DNA of 64,000 nt, taken from Sulfurimonas sp. GTDB lineage: Bacteria; Campylobacterota; Campylobacteria; Campylobacterales; Sulfurimonadaceae. The notes below the pieces were generated by a model, which had not been told where the DNA came from, made no database searches, and saw nothing but the letters and a program-made list of their open reading frames with translations. Made by a program: the position numbers and the translations under genes. This document shows positions 2,150 through 27,813 of the stretch, piece by piece; position 1 is the first letter of the stretch, and every line of letters starts with the position of its first letter. Location of the stretch: assembly GCA_028687935.1 (NCBI GenBank), contig JAQTZE010000003.1, positions 62,001 through 126,000 of the forward strand. The letters are read 5' to 3'.

Positions 2150-3769
2150 ATGAGAAGCGATGTTTTAATCATAGGAGCAGGTGGAGCTGGATTGGTAGCG
2201 GCTCTTGCTGCGAATGAAGCCGGCGCAAAAGTGCGTGTCATCACAAAAGAGTATCCAACACGAAGTCAGACTTCTATGGCGCAGGGCGGTATAAACGCAG
2301 CCTTAGGAAACGCAGGTGCGGACAGTGTCGAAGCACATATCCAAAACACGCTCAAGTCTGCACACGGCATGGCAAACGAAGAAGCGGTGCGTTATCTCTG
2401 CGAAGAGGCGCCCAAAGCTATTGAGTGGCTTGATAGTATCGGCGTCTGTTTTTCTCGTACAAAAGAGTCCAAAATCGCGCAAAGAACACTTGGTGGGGCT
2501 TCAGCTCCTCGCGCTTGTTACGCGCAGGATTATACGGGTCTCAAAATCCTTCACACGCTTTATGATAGATGTCTTGAAGCGGGTATCGAGATACTTTCTG
2601 AGCGTTATCTACTGAACTTCATCGTCAATCATGACCAATATGACAAAGCTTATGTCGGTGGAGCAACCGCGCTCAATATCCAAAGTGGAGAGGTAGAAAT
2701 CTATGAGAGCGCTTCTGTCATAGTAGCAACGGGTGGATATAGCCGTATTTATGACAAACACTCGACTAACTCTACAAGCTCAACGGGTGATGGCATCGCT
2801 GCGGCAATCCGCGCAGGTGCACGGCTAAGTGACATGGAATTTGTGCAGTTTCACCCCACAGCGCTCAAAAACTCCTCCATACTTATCTCGGAGAGTGCCA
2901 GAGGTGCGGGTGGCTATCTTGTCAATTCTAAGGGCGAGCGTTTTACAAATGAACTCGCACCCAGAGATGAAGTGGCGCGCGCTATCAACGATGAGATAAA
3001 CAAAGGTGAAGAGGTCTTTTTGGACATCCGACATTTGGGCGAAGCTTTTATCGATGAAGAGTTACCACAAGAGCGAAAACTCGCAAAACTCTATGAAAAT
3101 GTAGATCCTGTTTATGACCTGATTCCCGTAAAACCAGCAGCGCACTATACGATGGGCGGGATTGAAGTCGATAAAAACTCTCACTCAAAACTCAAAGGAC
3201 TTTTTGCCGCAGGCGAATGTGCTAACCATAAAGTCCACGGTGCTAACCGTTTGGGTGGAAACTCACTTTTAGAGTTAGTCGTCTTTGGCAAACAAGCTGG
3301 TCTAAACGCAGCTGCGTTTGCAAAGAAATTTGACAAGCCAATTGATACTTTAATGCAAAAGACAAGTGCAAATAACTTTGTAAAAGGTGTGAAATACTTT
3401 ACAAACCAGATAGATTTTTATGAAAAACGCAGCTTCATCGGCAAGATTTTTTATAACAATGCTGGGATAAGTCGTGATGACATGGGACTCAAAGCTGTTC
3501 TTGGTGCTGTGCGTCAGATACAAAGAGAGATCCCTTTTATGGGTCCAAAAGATAAGTCCAATATCTGTAATACAAACCTTATCGAGTTTATAGAGTTTGG
3601 CAATATGGTCGAGCTTTGCGAAATTATTTTGGTCTGTGCTATCAGCAGAAATGAGAGTCGTGGCGCGCACTATAGAAGCGATATTCCGCAGGCAAATGAT
3701 ATGGCCTACAAAGCACACACGATCACATGGAAAGAAGACGGCGTTTTGTGTGCCGACTTTATGGAGTAG
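2150..3769 (+). CDS. Fumarate reductase/succinate dehydrogenase-like flavoprotein subunit
   Basis: A 539-residue complex II-type flavoprotein that interconverts fumarate and succinate. The FAD dinucleotide motif GAGGAG is at residues 9-14. Substrate-site segments FHPTAL, SARGAGGYLVN, HYTMGGI and GANRLGGNSLLE are all present. The histidine that normally carries covalent FAD (RSHT in E. coli FrdA) is glutamine here (TRSQTSMAQGG, Gln40), so FAD is predicted to be non-covalent. ATG at 2150 follows a good AGAGGG site. The gene is followed after 3 bases by the iron-sulfur subunit. No membrane-anchor gene follows, so electron partner and direction are open. L-aspartate oxidase shares the fold but would not be paired with a FeS subunit. 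Confidence 0.85.
   Translation: MRSDVLIIGAGGAGLVAALAANEAGAKVRVITKEYPTRSQTSMAQGGINAALGNAGADSVEAHIQNTLKSAHGMANEEAVRYLCEEAPKAIEWLDSIGVCFSRTKESKIAQRTLGGASAPRACYAQDYTGLKILHTLYDRCLEAGIEILSERYLLNFIVNHDQYDKAYVGGATALNIQSGEVEIYESASVIVATGGYSRIYDKHSTNSTSSTGDGIAAAIRAGARLSDMEFVQFHPTALKNSSILISESARGAGGYLVNSKGERFTNELAPRDEVARAINDEINKGEEVFLDIRHLGEAFIDEELPQERKLAKLYENVDPVYDLIPVKPAAHYTMGGIEVDKNSHSKLKGLFAAGECANHKVHGANRLGGNSLLELVVFGKQAGLNAAAFAKKFDKPIDTLMQKTSANNFVKGVKYFTNQIDFYEKRSFIGKIFYNNAGISRDDMGLKAVLGAVRQIQREIPFMGPKDKSNICNTNLIEFIEFGNMVELCEIILVCAISRNESRGAHYRSDIPQANDMAYKAHTITWKEDGVLCADFME
3304..3319. repeat. 16-bp perfect palindrome made of two abutting AAACGCAG words
   Basis: Inside the flavoprotein gene the sequence AAACGCAGCTGCGTTT is a perfect 16-bp palindrome formed by two copies of the over-represented word head to head. 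It is in frame and encodes Asn-Ala-Ala-Ala-Phe. Confidence 0.85.
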
Positions 3770-3772
3770 AAG

Positions 3773-4501
3773 ATGAAAGTACAGATAAAAAGATATGTCA
3801 GCGAGCCTGAAGTCAAAGAGGCACTTTTAGAGTATGAAGTCGCACTCCAAAACGCAACTCTGCTTGAACTTTTACAAGAGATAAAAACCAAACAAGATGC
3901 TTCTCTCTCTTTTTCAAGCGGATGTAGAAGCAGTGTTTGTGGCAGCTGTTCGATGCGTGTCAACGGCAAAGAGGTGTTAGCGTGTTCTTATAAAGTCCAA
4001 GAGGGCGATATCATCGAGCCGCTCAAAAATGTGCCTGTGCTTCGTGATCTTATTGTTGACATGAACAAATCCTATGCCTTTAATGCAAAAGCAAAAGCGT
4101 GGCTGAGTTCACTCACACAAAATGCAGCTCTCTCGCCTGAAGATGAGAAGATAAACGAGGTTCAGAGTGACTGTATCCTCTGTGGTTCGTGTTATAGTGC
4201 TTGTCCTGTTTATAGCGTCAATGAAGAGTTCTTGGGTCCATTTGCCCTGACAAGAGTCTGGAAATATGTAGGCGACAAACGCGAGAGTGATAACGTGAGC
4301 AAACTTGATGTTATTCAGACAAACGGTGTTTGGGATTGTACGCTTTGTAATGAGTGTACGATTGTTTGTCCGCAAAATATCTCAAGCAAATCTGACATAG
4401 AGAAACTTCGCTCAAAATCTGTGATGGCAGGCTATAAAGACCCTAGTTTTGCCAACAATTTTGGTGGTGGTTTTGGGTTTGATGGAAGCCCTTCCTTTTA
4501 A
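3773..4501 (+). CDS. Fumarate reductase/succinate dehydrogenase-like iron-sulfur subunit, E-type-like cysteine pattern
   Basis: A 242-residue FeS subunit of the complex II family. The N-terminal ferredoxin domain has the 2Fe-2S cysteines (CRSSVCGSC and a later LAC). The C-terminal domain has CILCGSCYSACP and CTLCNECTIVCP. In canonical SdhB/FrdB the second motif has a hydrophobic residue at the second position (E. coli FrdB CTFVGYC) and binds 3Fe-4S. Here that position is Cys, which is expected to give a second 4Fe-4S cluster, as in E-type enzymes of Sulfolobus. The tail is glycine/phenylalanine-rich (NNFGGGFGFDG), which I cannot explain. The gene is followed by a 257-base non-coding region rather than a membrane subunit. 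Confidence 0.85.
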   Translation: MKVQIKRYVSEPEVKEALLEYEVALQNATLLELLQEIKTKQDASLSFSSGCRSSVCGSCSMRVNGKEVLACSYKVQEGDIIEPLKNVPVLRDLIVDMNKSYAFNAKAKAWLSSLTQNAALSPEDEKINEVQSDCILCGSCYSACPVYSVNEEFLGPFALTRVWKYVGDKRESDNVSKLDVIQTNGVWDCTLCNECTIVCPQNISSKSDIEKLRSKSVMAGYKDPSFANNFGGGFGFDGSPSF

Positions 4502-4511
4502 TTTATAGTAT

Positions 4512-4626
4512 CACTAAAACGAACTTGTCCGTTTTAGTGGCATGGACTAATACCCAAGGGGCAGACCTAGTCCCTGCAACCCCCTAAAGCTACGAAAAAC
4601 TATGTTTTTCGAGAAGTGCAGGATTT
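4512..4626 (+). other. Structured intergenic region: candidate small RNA or attenuator-like 3' element
   Basis: Downstream of the FeS subunit lies a series of inverted repeats. CACTAAAACG/CGTTTTAGTG (4512-4521/4530-4539) forms a 10-bp stem. GCAG/CTGC (4561-4564/4574-4577) plus GGG/CCC forms a second. CGAAAAAC/GTTTTTCG (4593-4600/4604-4611) forms an 8-bp stem with a 3-base loop. CCTGCA (4573-4578) can pair with TGCAGG (4617-4622), enclosing that stem and followed by ATTTTT like an intrinsic terminator. The second and fourth pairings share bases and exclude each other, as in attenuators. The first hairpin could simply be the operon terminator. No match to tmRNA, SRP RNA, 6S or RNase P RNA was recognised. 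Confidence 0.45.
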
Positions 4627-4630
4627 TTAA

Positions 4631-4663
4631 TAAACGCAGTAGTCTAAAAAATTACTGCGTTTA
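4631..4663. repeat. Intergenic hairpin from inverted AAACGCAG words
   Basis: TAAACGCAGTA (4631-4641) and TACTGCGTTTA (4653-4663) are perfect 11-base inverted arms around an A-rich loop. A G-T and a T-A pair can extend the stem inward. This is the over-represented word in inverted pairing, between the structured region and the yajQ promoter. In Haemophilus and Neisseria, uptake-sequence pairs placed like this act as terminators; there is no long T-run here. Confidence 0.75.
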
Positions 4664-4758: not shown

Positions 4759-5256
4759 ATGGCGAAAGAATATTCATTTGATATTAGTGCGAAAATAAAT
4801 ATGCAGAGTTTTAAAGATGCTATAAACCTCGTGGATCGCGAAGTGGCAAATCGTTATGACTTCAAAGGGACTCCTTTTGAAGTGAATTATAAAGAAAAAG
4901 ATAAGCAGCTAGTGTTAGTAGCTTCGAGTGATAACAAACTCGATGCACTCAAAGATGTTGTTATCGCAAAGCTTTTAAAACAAGGACTCTCATCAAAAGT
5001 ACTTGAGGAACAAAAAACAGAAGATGCAAGTGGTGGGACGAGAAAAGCGACTTTTAAAATTGTTGACTATATCGAGTCTAAAGAGGCGAAAAAGATAACA
5101 GCTGAGATAAAAAACCTCAAACTCAAAGTAAATGCACAGATAGAAGGGGATTCTATCCGTGTCAAGGGTGCTAAACTTGATGATTTGCAAACAGTGATTG
5201 CGACAATCCGTTCTATGGAATGGGAAGCACCGCTTGTTTTTGAAAACATGAGATAA
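4759..5256 (+). CDS. yajQ: YajQ family nucleotide-binding protein
   Basis: A 165-residue soluble protein with the family opening (EYSFDISAKINMQ), followed by NRYDFKGT and the C-terminal KGAKLDDLQTVI segment. YajQ proteins are two ferredoxin-like domains; in Xanthomonas and Pseudomonas, members bind c-di-GMP and modulate transcription factors. Whether this one binds c-di-GMP is not visible, but the window is rich in c-di-GMP enzymes. It has its own TATAAT promoter and a good ribosome site. The next gene begins 7 bases after its stop, so the two are probably one transcript. Confidence 0.9.
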   Translation: MAKEYSFDISAKINMQSFKDAINLVDREVANRYDFKGTPFEVNYKEKDKQLVLVASSDNKLDALKDVVIAKLLKQGLSSKVLEEQKTEDASGGTRKATFKIVDYIESKEAKKITAEIKNLKLKVNAQIEGDSIRVKGAKLDDLQTVIATIRSMEWEAPLVFENMR

Positions 5257-20885: not shown

Positions 20886-22689
20886 CACGATAGAGCTTTT
20901 AAAAAAGCATGATTTATTACGGGTTATAGATGAAGAGTTGGATATTTATCTTGAGATTCCGCATGTGGCCTATGTTGAGGTAAAGAGTCCAGACTCAAAA
21001 GCGCTTCTCTTTACAAACGCAGTCGATAGAAAAAGCGGCAAAAAGTTTGATGCACCGATACTGATGAATGTTTTTTGTTCTCCAAAAGTAGTAGAGCTTC
21101 TCATCGGCGATGGCGATGCCATTGGCGCGCGTATTGAGGAGCTTTTGCATATGAAGCCTCCAAGCGGTTTTATGGACAAACTTTCTATGTTTGGCACACT
21201 TTTCAACCTCAAGTCTGTCTTTCCAAAAAAGCTCTCTAAAAAGGGTGAATGTCAGGAGGTCATCAAACTAGGGCACGATGCAAAACTCAGTGATTTGCCA
21301 GTGCTCACAACCTGGGAACAAGATGCTGGAGCATTTATCACAATGGGACAGGTCTATACAAAAAGTCTCGATGGCAATCTCAGCAATCTTGGGATGTATA
21401 GACTTCAAGTGCATGATGACCACACACTTGGAATGCACTGGCAGATACACAAAGACTCTAACCATTTCTTCCACGAGTACAAAAAAGCAGGCAAAAAAAT
21501 GCCCGTTAGTGTCGGTATCGGCGGCGATCCACTCTATATTTGGTGTGGACAAGCGCCTTTGCCTATCGGTGTTTTTGAACTGATGCTTTATGGATTTATC
21601 AGGGGCAAAAACGCAGAGCTTGTGAAATGTATCACAAACGATCTCTATGTTCCGCGTGATGTGGATTATGTCATGGAAGGCTTTGTGGATGTAGAAAATT
21701 TGCGTATAGAAGGGCCTTTTGGAGACCACACAGGATATTACACTCTTGATGAAGAGTATCCGTTTATGGAAGTAACAGCCATCACACACAAAAAAAATCC
21801 TATCTTTGCAGCCACAGTCGTCGGCAAACCGCCACTTGAAGATAAGTATATGGGACATGCAACGGAGCGCATATTTTTGCCACTGCTCAAAACAACTGCA
21901 CCTGATCTTTTGGACTATTATATGCCTGAAAATGGGGTCTATCATAACCTTATTTTGGCAAAGATAAAAACGCTCTATCCAGGACACGCACAGCAGGTGA
22001 TGCATGCGTTTTGGGGAGTGGGACAGATGAGTTTTGTCAAACATGCGATATTTGTGGGTGAAGACGCCCCCGCACTCACAGACCATGAAGCGCTCACAGA
22101 ACATATCCTCAACCGCATAGATATAGATGATCTTATGCTTAGCCGCGGTGTCGTCGATGCTCTTGATCATAGCTCCAATAAGTTTGGAGTAGGTGGAAAG
22201 CTCGGGATTGATTGTACGGGTGAGCTAGTGCAAAAGAGTGAGATAGATCTTCTTGAAGATGCAGTTTTGTATGCAAAAATGAGAGCAATCACGGATGAAG
22301 TAATAGAGCTCAAACAGTATTTTACAAACACTAACACACCACTGTGTGTTATCTCTGTAGACAAACGCAGAACGCAAAAAGAGCTTTTCGCAGATCTCAC
22401 ACTTCTACTAGAACATATCAAAGTGCTCATCGTAGTAGATGCAAAAAACAACTACCTTGACAATCCCTACATGCTCATCTGGAGAGTGGTCAATAACATC
22501 GATGCAAACAGAGACTTCCATTTCGCACACAAAAGCCTCTGTATCGATGCGACAAACAAAAACGCAATGGACGGATTTACGCGAAGATGGCCTGATGATG
22601 TCTCATGTACGCCAAGTGTGATAGAAGCCCTCAAACGCAAGGGTGTTATAGCGATAGATGCTGCGTTTGAGAGGAAGTTTTTGTTGTAG
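20872..22689 (+). CDS. Menaquinone biosynthesis decarboxylase, UbiD family
   Basis: A 605-residue UbiD-type decarboxylase that uses prenylated FMN. The signature EGPFGDHTGYYTLDEEYPFMEV and the downstream GHATERIFLPLLK match the family. Campylobacterota make menaquinone by the futalosine route, in which a UbiD homologue decarboxylates the naphthoate intermediate, so that is the expected role rather than ubiquinone synthesis. The start at 20872 (MQTNSTIELLKKHD) fits the family N-terminus and overlaps the preceding gene. A UbiX-type flavin prenyltransferase is needed but not in the window. Confidence 0.88.
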   Translation: MQTNSTIELLKKHDLLRVIDEELDIYLEIPHVAYVEVKSPDSKALLFTNAVDRKSGKKFDAPILMNVFCSPKVVELLIGDGDAIGARIEELLHMKPPSGFMDKLSMFGTLFNLKSVFPKKLSKKGECQEVIKLGHDAKLSDLPVLTTWEQDAGAFITMGQVYTKSLDGNLSNLGMYRLQVHDDHTLGMHWQIHKDSNHFFHEYKKAGKKMPVSVGIGGDPLYIWCGQAPLPIGVFELMLYGFIRGKNAELVKCITNDLYVPRDVDYVMEGFVDVENLRIEGPFGDHTGYYTLDEEYPFMEVTAITHKKNPIFAATVVGKPPLEDKYMGHATERIFLPLLKTTAPDLLDYYMPENGVYHNLILAKIKTLYPGHAQQVMHAFWGVGQMSFVKHAIFVGEDAPALTDHEALTEHILNRIDIDDLMLSRGVVDALDHSSNKFGVGGKLGIDCTGELVQKSEIDLLEDAVLYAKMRAITDEVIELKQYFTNTNTPLCVISVDKRRTQKELFADLTLLLEHIKVLIVVDAKNNYLDNPYMLIWRVVNNIDANRDFHFAHKSLCIDATNKNAMDGFTRRWPDDVSCTPSVIEALKRKGVIAIDAAFERKFLL

Positions 22690-26532: not shown

Positions 26533-27813
26533 ATGAATAGAGCAATAAATGATATGAAACTTCTTTTAAAACAATTGGATATATTGTCTTTACTCAATGC
26601 TTTTGAATTCTCTATCGATCCAATCGTGCTTACAACTGTGAATTGGGATGAGGGGATAAAATTTCTCTATGTCAATCCAGCTTTCACTGCTGAAACGGGC
26701 TATACAAATGAAGAGCTCTTTGGTCAAAGTCTTGAGATACTTCAAGGTGAAAATAGCGATAAAAATGAGCTAGCAAGAGTAAAAACGCAGCTTCTCTCAG
26801 GTAAAAACTTTCTTGGTCAAAATATCAACTACACAAAAGAACAGCTTCAATACGTAGTAAAACGCAGCGTATCACCCTTGTTAAATAGCGCAGGAGAACT
26901 TGTTGCATATATCTCATTTCAAAAAATCATCACCAAACTTGTAGCAATGCAAGAGGAGAACTTTTTACTCAAAGCTGTTGTCAAAGAAGCGCCAGGAATG
27001 ATTTTGGTAACAGATATTAAAGCCAATATCGTTTATGTTAACGACGCATTTTGTAGCAACATGGGTTATCTTGAGAGTGAACTTATTGGGCAAAACGCAA
27101 GAGTACTCAAGTCAGGAAAGCAAGACAAACATTTTTACAAAAATATGTGGGACTTTTTGATTGAACATGGCTATTTTGAAGATGTCTTTTTGAATAAGAA
27201 AAAAGATGGAACGCTCTTTTATGATAAGAAAAAAATCAAATCTATCACAAATACAAAGGGAGAGGTCTCCAACTATTTTAGTGTGAGCTACGATGTGACA
27301 AAAGAGCGACGCAACGAAGCAAGAATGCTTGGCGAGATCTATACAGATTCCCTTACAAAACTTCAAAATAGAAAAAAATATGATTTAGATTTTGCTGAGA
27401 ATGTTCTTGCGTTTGAGCAAAACGCAAGACCTTTTTCTCTTATTTTATTTGATATCGATTTTTTCAAAACTGTCAATGATACTTACGGGCATGACAAAGG
27501 GGACTTTGTCCTCAAAGAGACTTCCAGACGTATAAAATCTTTGATGATTCAAGGCAAAGATATGCTTTATCGATGGGGTGGCGAAGAGTTTGCGATACTC
27601 ACAAATAGAGATCTCGATGACGCATTTAATCTTGCAAAAGTTGTTCGAACATTGATAAAAGAGCATGATTTTGATGGCATAAGAATAACGCTAAGCTTTG
27701 GTCTTGGAGAGATACGCTCAGAGTGGAGTGGGGAAGAGTTTTTCAAGCAGATAGACAAAGCTCTCTATGAAGCCAAAAAAACTGGTCGCGATAAGATAGT
27801 CAAAACTAACTAA
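26533..27813 (+). CDS. Diguanylate cyclase with two PAS domains
   Basis: A 426-residue soluble protein: PAS 1 (about 20-130, FLYVNPAFTAETGY), PAS 2 (about 140-260, ILVTDIKANIVYVNDAFCSNMGY) and a GGDEF domain with active site RWGGEEFAIL and metal Asp in LFDIDFFKTVNDTYGHDKGD. The inhibitory RxxD site is not conserved (QGKD at the expected place), so product inhibition is probably weak. It should make c-di-GMP in response to PAS ligands (redox, oxygen or flavin), which are not predictable. The start follows a TATAAT box by 6 bases. Confidence 0.9.
   Translation: MNRAINDMKLLLKQLDILSLLNAFEFSIDPIVLTTVNWDEGIKFLYVNPAFTAETGYTNEELFGQSLEILQGENSDKNELARVKTQLLSGKNFLGQNINYTKEQLQYVVKRSVSPLLNSAGELVAYISFQKIITKLVAMQEENFLLKAVVKEAPGMILVTDIKANIVYVNDAFCSNMGYLESELIGQNARVLKSGKQDKHFYKNMWDFLIEHGYFEDVFLNKKKDGTLFYDKKKIKSITNTKGEVSNYFSVSYDVTKERRNEARMLGEIYTDSLTKLQNRKKYDLDFAENVLAFEQNARPFSLILFDIDFFKTVNDTYGHDKGDFVLKETSRRIKSLMIQGKDMLYRWGGEEFAILTNRDLDDAFNLAKVVRTLIKEHDFDGIRITLSFGLGEIRSEWSGEEFFKQIDKALYEAKKTGRDKIVKTN
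27406..27428. repeat. Inverted pair of AAACGCAAG words inside the PAS-GGDEF gene
   Basis: CTTGCGTTT (27406-27414) and AAACGCAAG (27420-27428) are perfect 9-base inverted arms with a 5-base loop. It is a third inverted pairing of the over-represented word, this time in coding DNA. Confidence 0.8.

Follow-up and report, generated by a model that had tools for sequence, protein, structure and literature searches.

The window considered here is a stretch of 64,000 nucleotides from a Sulfurimonas genome (G000:C39:62001-126000; G000 comprises 2.58 Mb in 42 contigs), and in the intergenic space at positions 4631 to 4663 it carries a hairpin whose arms are two copies, facing each other, of a short word that is dense in this genome. 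An earlier note had read the word as uptake-like and its inverted pairs as comparable to the terminators of Haemophilus and Neisseria. The question is whether such pairs are a feature in their own right, or are what would be expected of neighbours wherever a word is dense. Neisserial DUS are described as mostly intergenic and often forming terminators (PMC2397512).

Abundance, placement and dialects of the word

The word AAACGCAG occurs 73 times in the window (39 on the forward and 34 on the reverse strand), with flanks of little information content, and 2,331 times across G000 (1,187 and 1,144), against 83 copies (46 and 37) of the reversed control word; the genome thus has one short word in high copy on both strands, as expected of an uptake sequence. 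The form of the word was defined in a 464-kb sample consisting of the window and 20 hand-picked stretches, and the gene calls used here are those of a custom hexamer-based caller. As stretches around pairs were avoided, pair counts in this sample run low, and the conclusions on pairs are based on genome-wide counts. In the sample both AAACGCAG (419 copies) and AAACGCAA (368) are plentiful, whilst the 21 variants altered in the first seven positions have at most 64 copies each, mostly close to or below the Markov expectation; the working word is therefore AAACGCAR. It is a dense, strand-symmetric, uptake-sequence-like word, at about 1.7 copies per kb, ranging from 0.6 to 2.95 per kb among stretches. 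Extrapolation from the same sample puts the number of AAACGCA copies in the genome at about 5,023.

Words are under-represented between genes, with 19 of 419 copies of AAACGCAG being intergenic in the sample (26.3 expected) and 13 of 368 copies of AAACGCAA (23.1 expected). Within genes two readings are favoured, N-A in the sense direction (310 of 744 coding words) and A-F in the antisense direction (238). In classical uptake-sequence genomes, words with one mismatch are in excess; no such excess was found for AAACGCAR in the 464-kb sample, and this counts against the uptake-word account. The longest word-free stretch of the sample (L219:549-14121) covers 13.6 kb at 28.8% GC, carries genes for TniQ, a PAPS-reductase domain and DndB, and looks like a mobile defence-type island. 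In the two next-longest gaps, the proteins scanned include GGDEF proteins, citrate transporters and a Schlafen-type helicase.

Amongst the 24 other genomes of the genus, AAACGCAG is abundant in G014 (1,367 copies) and G016 (1,822), and intermediate in G009 (409), G010 (361), G023 (406) and G003 (146). A second dense word, CTCACGCA, emerged in G007, G020 and G022 (stretches L232, L241 and L243) from k-mer tables of 20-kb stretches of 20 relatives. Counted over 30 genomes, it has 767 copies in G007, 688 in G013, 621 in G020 and 948 in G022, as against 25, 23, 22 and 39 for the respective reversed controls, and at most 132 in every other genome. The core ACGCA is common to AAACGCAR and CTCACGCA, and the latter replaces the former in these four relatives, so that related species carry dialects with a shared core. 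The uptake-like character proposed in the earlier note is thus borne out by copy number, by occurrence on both strands and by dialects.

Inverted pairs in the window

The three pairs of the earlier note were recovered with the same letters, positions and gene context (Table 1), two of them inside genes. They had all been called head to head, which holds for the pairs at 4631 and 3304; the pair at 27406 has the opposite geometry, its words diverging. The list was also incomplete, the window holding three converging and five diverging AAACGCA pairs at gaps of up to 30 bases. Neither number is above chance, since placing the words at random 5,000 times gave 3.1 of each (p 0.59 for converging and 0.20 for diverging pairs); those for AAACGCAG alone, two converging and two diverging, compare with 0.8 of each (p 0.18 and 0.19).

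Table 1. Coordinates of word pairs and neighbouring features in the window.
Feature	Position	Strand	Remarks
Succinate dehydrogenase/fumarate reductase-type flavoprotein gene	2150-3769		Contains the 3304 palindrome
16-bp palindrome AAACGCAGCTGCGTTT, converging words	3304-3319	.	Inside the flavoprotein gene; encodes N-A-A-A-F
Iron-sulfur protein gene	3773-4501		Upstream neighbour of the 4631-4663 pair
Word-free hairpin	4512-4539	+	10-bp stem; 10 bp downstream of the stop codon of gene 3773-4501; no U-tract
Left arm TAAACGCAGTA, intergenic converging pair	4631-4641	+	From sequence; hairpin by RNA folding
Right arm TACTGCGTTTA, same pair	4653-4663	-	From sequence; no U-tract on either strand
DUF520 protein gene	4759-5256		Other neighbour of the 4631-4663 pair
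Further converging AAACGCA pair	22633-22668	.	Gap 22; intragenic, 21 bp from gene end; missing from the earlier list
PAS/GGDEF protein gene	26533-27813		Contains the 27406-27428 pair
Diverging pair CTTGCGTTT (27406-27414) and AAACGCAAG (27420-27428)	27406-27428	.	Inside the PAS/GGDEF gene

The intergenic pair has 11-bp arms around an 11-base spacer and is predicted to fold as an RNA hairpin on both strands (z -3.6 on the forward and -3.0 on the reverse strand), as is the pair at 27406 with its 9-bp arms and 5-base loop (z -2.8). The 3304 palindrome was rejected as an RNA hairpin (z 0.06). A stable hairpin at 4631 is what a Rho-independent terminator requires, but the U-tract that should follow the stem is lacking, and the pair is not among the terminator-like sites detected. 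It is also separated by 130 bp from the stop codon of the upstream iron-sulfur protein gene, behind the word-free hairpin at 4512-4539, which is the nearer candidate for a gene-end structure.

The idea that the 4631 pair is an old conserved element was rejected. The block in which it lies has no second full copy in G000, where only partial matches of 40 and 24 bp were found; Rfam gave no match in the window; and in the nearest relatives, L017 and L018, most of the block is missing. The downstream DUF520 gene, which we take to be yajQ, finds its best matches among Sulfurimonas records (98% for L017, Sulfurimonas sp. GWF2_37_8), which places G000 in that genus. AAACGCA was absent from the 300 bp upstream of yajQ in nine of nine relatives examined. 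Of the two partial matches within the genome, one is a 40-bp hairpin stretch (4512-4545) that recurs at C36:17982-18021 (83%); the other, 24 bp long (4570-4593), recurs at C8:38295-38318 (96%). A similar GCAACCCCCTAAAGCTACGAAA stretch stands upstream of yajQ in L019.

The palindrome at 3304 is a product of the reading frame, an in-frame fusion of N-A and A-F, and all four coding copies of AAACGCAGCTGCGTTT encode N-A-A-A-F. L018, the nearest relative with the region, reads N-A-A-I-Y and has the left word only, and the palindrome is absent from the printed codons of 50 of 50 aligned relatives; the second word was apparently gained along with amino-acid changes.

Pair orientation and gene ends across the genome

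If inversion were favoured, converging or diverging pairs should show a greater excess over expectation than direct ones. At gaps of 0 to 30 bases, G000 has 30 converging, 27 diverging and 67 direct pairs of AAACGCAG (66 direct pairs after filtering of duplicates), where uniform placement predicts 16.3, 16.3 and 32.6. The excess is about 1.8-fold and the same in all orientations, thus the words cluster without any preference for inversion; variation in density between stretches could explain part of this clustering. Eight of the 67 direct pairs belong to one 18-bp tandem array, leaving 59 outside it. The array (G000:C11:50597-50748; L153) repeats the unit AAACGCAGTTCCAAATGT, which holds the word, in at least eight steps and ends near the contig end.

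For AAACGCA at gaps of 0 to 32, 97 converging and 90 diverging pairs were counted in G000 against about 80.6 of each expected (one-sided p 0.04 and 0.16). The word-rich relatives have 28 converging and 31 diverging pairs (G014) and 59 and 64 (G016), and the three genomes together 184 and 185. Overall, AAACGCA pairs in G000 reach 1.1 to 1.2 times expectation, whereas those of AAACGCAG reach some 1.8. Inverted pairing as a feature in its own right was rejected on this orientation balance. In the earlier note, a pair frequency no higher than that given by word density was to speak against its reading; with 97 and 90 AAACGCA pairs against about 81, and direct AAACGCAG pairs as much in excess as inverted ones, the counts go largely against it. 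Its remark that the pairs are not just terminators does stand, most pairs being intragenic (for AAACGCAG, 24 of 30 converging, 25 of 27 diverging and 65 of 66 direct).

Gene context was examined for all AAACGCAG pairs and for 27 of the 67 converging and 20 of the 63 diverging pairs of other composition, 57 and 47 in all; C8:155396/155409 was present twice and is counted once, giving 56 distinct converging loci. Ten of the 57 converging and four of the 47 diverging pairs are not wholly coding, and of these nine and three, respectively, have the 3' end of a gene no more than 30 bp away; the two kinds of pair do not differ significantly (Fisher p 0.25 and 0.22). Among random segments of comparable length, 9.2% are not wholly coding and 3.7% lie near a 3' end. 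Against the latter figure converging pairs are enriched (8 of the 56 distinct loci, p 0.001) and diverging pairs are not (3 of 47). The signal at 3' ends is real, and small.

The best account of this signal is the fusion of words with stop codons. At 417 gene ends, 12 sense words overlap the stop codon (eight by two bases, four by one) against an expectation of 0.35 per offset, or about 0.7 for both, and no antisense word does so; in the fused form, TAA-ACGCAR, the word doubles as the stop codon. Of the eight 3'-end loci, L103, L107:4756, L117, L151 and L222 have at least one such word and the other three have none. L151 and L222 each hold two tail-to-tail genes that both end with a stop-fused word; positions 17080-17100 of L222 read TAAACGCAACTCTTGCGTTTA. 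L103 and L124 stand between convergent genes, no more than about 10 bp from either stop, and have strong predicted folds (z -4.4 and -5.0). The concentration at 3' ends that the earlier note had proposed to look for is thus present to a small extent among converging pairs, with stop-fused words as its best explanation.

A stem followed by a U-tract was detected at 33 of 414 gene ends, including 12 of 82 convergent ends, as compared with 12 of 380 gene-internal controls. The word lies in the stem of none of these 33 U-tract terminators, although the search was crude and finds few terminators, so that this is weak evidence of absence. Together with the missing U-tract at 4631, it speaks against the terminator analogy with Haemophilus and Neisseria for most of the pairs; that inverted pairs act as terminators is a secondary trait of uptake sequences, not a strictly defining one, and both the orientation balance and the 33 terminators speak against it in this genome.

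Explanations of the pairs and of the word

In our view, with a probability of about 0.75, the pairs are mostly chance neighbours of the dense word AAACGCAR, shaped by codon frame and stop fusion, and form no special class of terminator. At about 1.7 words per kb, two words would often land within 30 bp of each other. The intragenic word, mainly N-A in sense or A-F in antisense, would occupy one shared codon frame, and head-to-head fusion of the two readings would create the palindrome encoding N-A-A-A-F. At gene ends, fusion with the stop would come at no amino-acid cost and would place a converging pair between tail-to-tail genes. Such pairs could form hairpins in the RNA and might in some few cases act as weak 3' ends, without the U-tract of an intrinsic terminator. 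Converging pairs at stops would then arise without selection for the hairpin, and the 3'-end cases would be by-products. This reading draws on what was observed above, namely the counts, the balance of orientations, the codon frames in use, the words fused to stops, the in silico folds and the lack of conservation at 4631; weighing against it are the excess of AAACGCAG pairs in all orientations, which this account does not fully explain, and the 3'-end enrichment, with three of eight loci free of stop-fused words.

That enrichment, confined to converging pairs, and the strongly folding pairs close to both stops at L103 and L124 are what would be expected if, at a minority of gene ends, converging pairs had been recruited by exaptation to terminate transcription, a role reported for DUS in Neisseria and for USS in Haemophilus. 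We regard this as unlikely, as stop fusion accounts for five of the eight loci, converging and diverging pairs do not differ significantly when compared alone, most pairs have no U-tract in their printed flanks, no detected U-tract terminator has the word in its stem, and the 4631 pair is neither near its stop nor conserved; exaptation may nevertheless have occurred at a few sites such as L103 and L124. The likeness to a Rho-independent terminator consists in a hairpin at some gene ends, the differences in the absent U-tract and, at 4631, in the distance from the stop and the intervening hairpin. A different doubt concerns the word itself, which might instead mark sites of some other process acting along the whole chromosome (involving a nucleoid protein, segregation, repair or methylation), with the pairs incidental. 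Consistent with this are the sharp edges of the word, its one-mismatch variants being near background, and the lack of an uptake assay on record in the literature searched. ComEC, moreover, was found in 24 of 25 genomes, G000 among them, word-rich or word-poor alike, and T2SSE-family ATPases in 25 of 25; competence machinery is thus present in G000 but unspecific, and this counts against the uptake-word account. We nonetheless find another such process doubtful, since the word totals show no strand preference, members of one genus carry alternative words built on the ACGCA core, and the 13.6-kb word-free stretch, with TniQ and DndB and its low GC, looks like foreign DNA.

The pairs themselves are close to ordinary, and the notable part is the word with its dialects. 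We lean, with some reserve, towards an uptake-sequence system proper to Sulfurimonas, in two dialects or more (AAACGCAR and CTCACGCA, core ACGCA), whose words sit in tolerant frames and stop fusions and not, as in Neisseria, in terminators; AAACGCAR would then serve DNA uptake. To our knowledge, Neisseriaceae and Pasteurellaceae are the only families with established uptake sequences. No report of them in Sulfurimonas or Campylobacterota was found among the titles and abstract openings listed from the literature searched, which mostly excludes subscription journals and preprints, and a search for the letters of the word listed unrelated sequences. With Pasteurellaceae USS (Hin and Apl types) the word has in common thousands of copies and two related types sharing a core; it differs in its core, ACGCA and not GCGG, in the little information in its flanks and in the absence of a one-mismatch excess. 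DUS of Neisseriaceae have another sequence and belong to another phylum. They resemble the Sulfurimonas words in being short, in high copy, on both strands and in dialects, those of related neisserial species having an inner core in common; a pair of ACGCA words in a single genus also recalls the dialects known in Neisseriaceae and in Pasteurellaceae (PMC12616744). In contrast to neisserial DUS, mostly located between genes and often part of terminators (PMC2397512), the Sulfurimonas words are under-represented between genes and do not favour inverted pairs. If the proposed system is real, a dialect-bearing uptake word in Campylobacterota would represent an independent origin, and comparisons of close species with and without the word would make it possible to test whether biased uptake spreads such words and whether they come to lie where the cost is lowest, in stop codons and tolerant frames.

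In a ComEC tree of 22 rows (without G003, which had no match, G015, which was not included, and G013, in which no open frame was found at mid-locus), the AAACGCAR genomes fall into separate clades, G000 with G016 and G014 with G023. AAACGCG(A) is enriched in G009 (L233), where AAACGCG has 649 copies genome-wide against 204 for the control; it may be one more variant of the word. Stretches of G004 (L229) and G006 (L231) that carry neither uptake-like word show an enrichment of TACATGTA(G).
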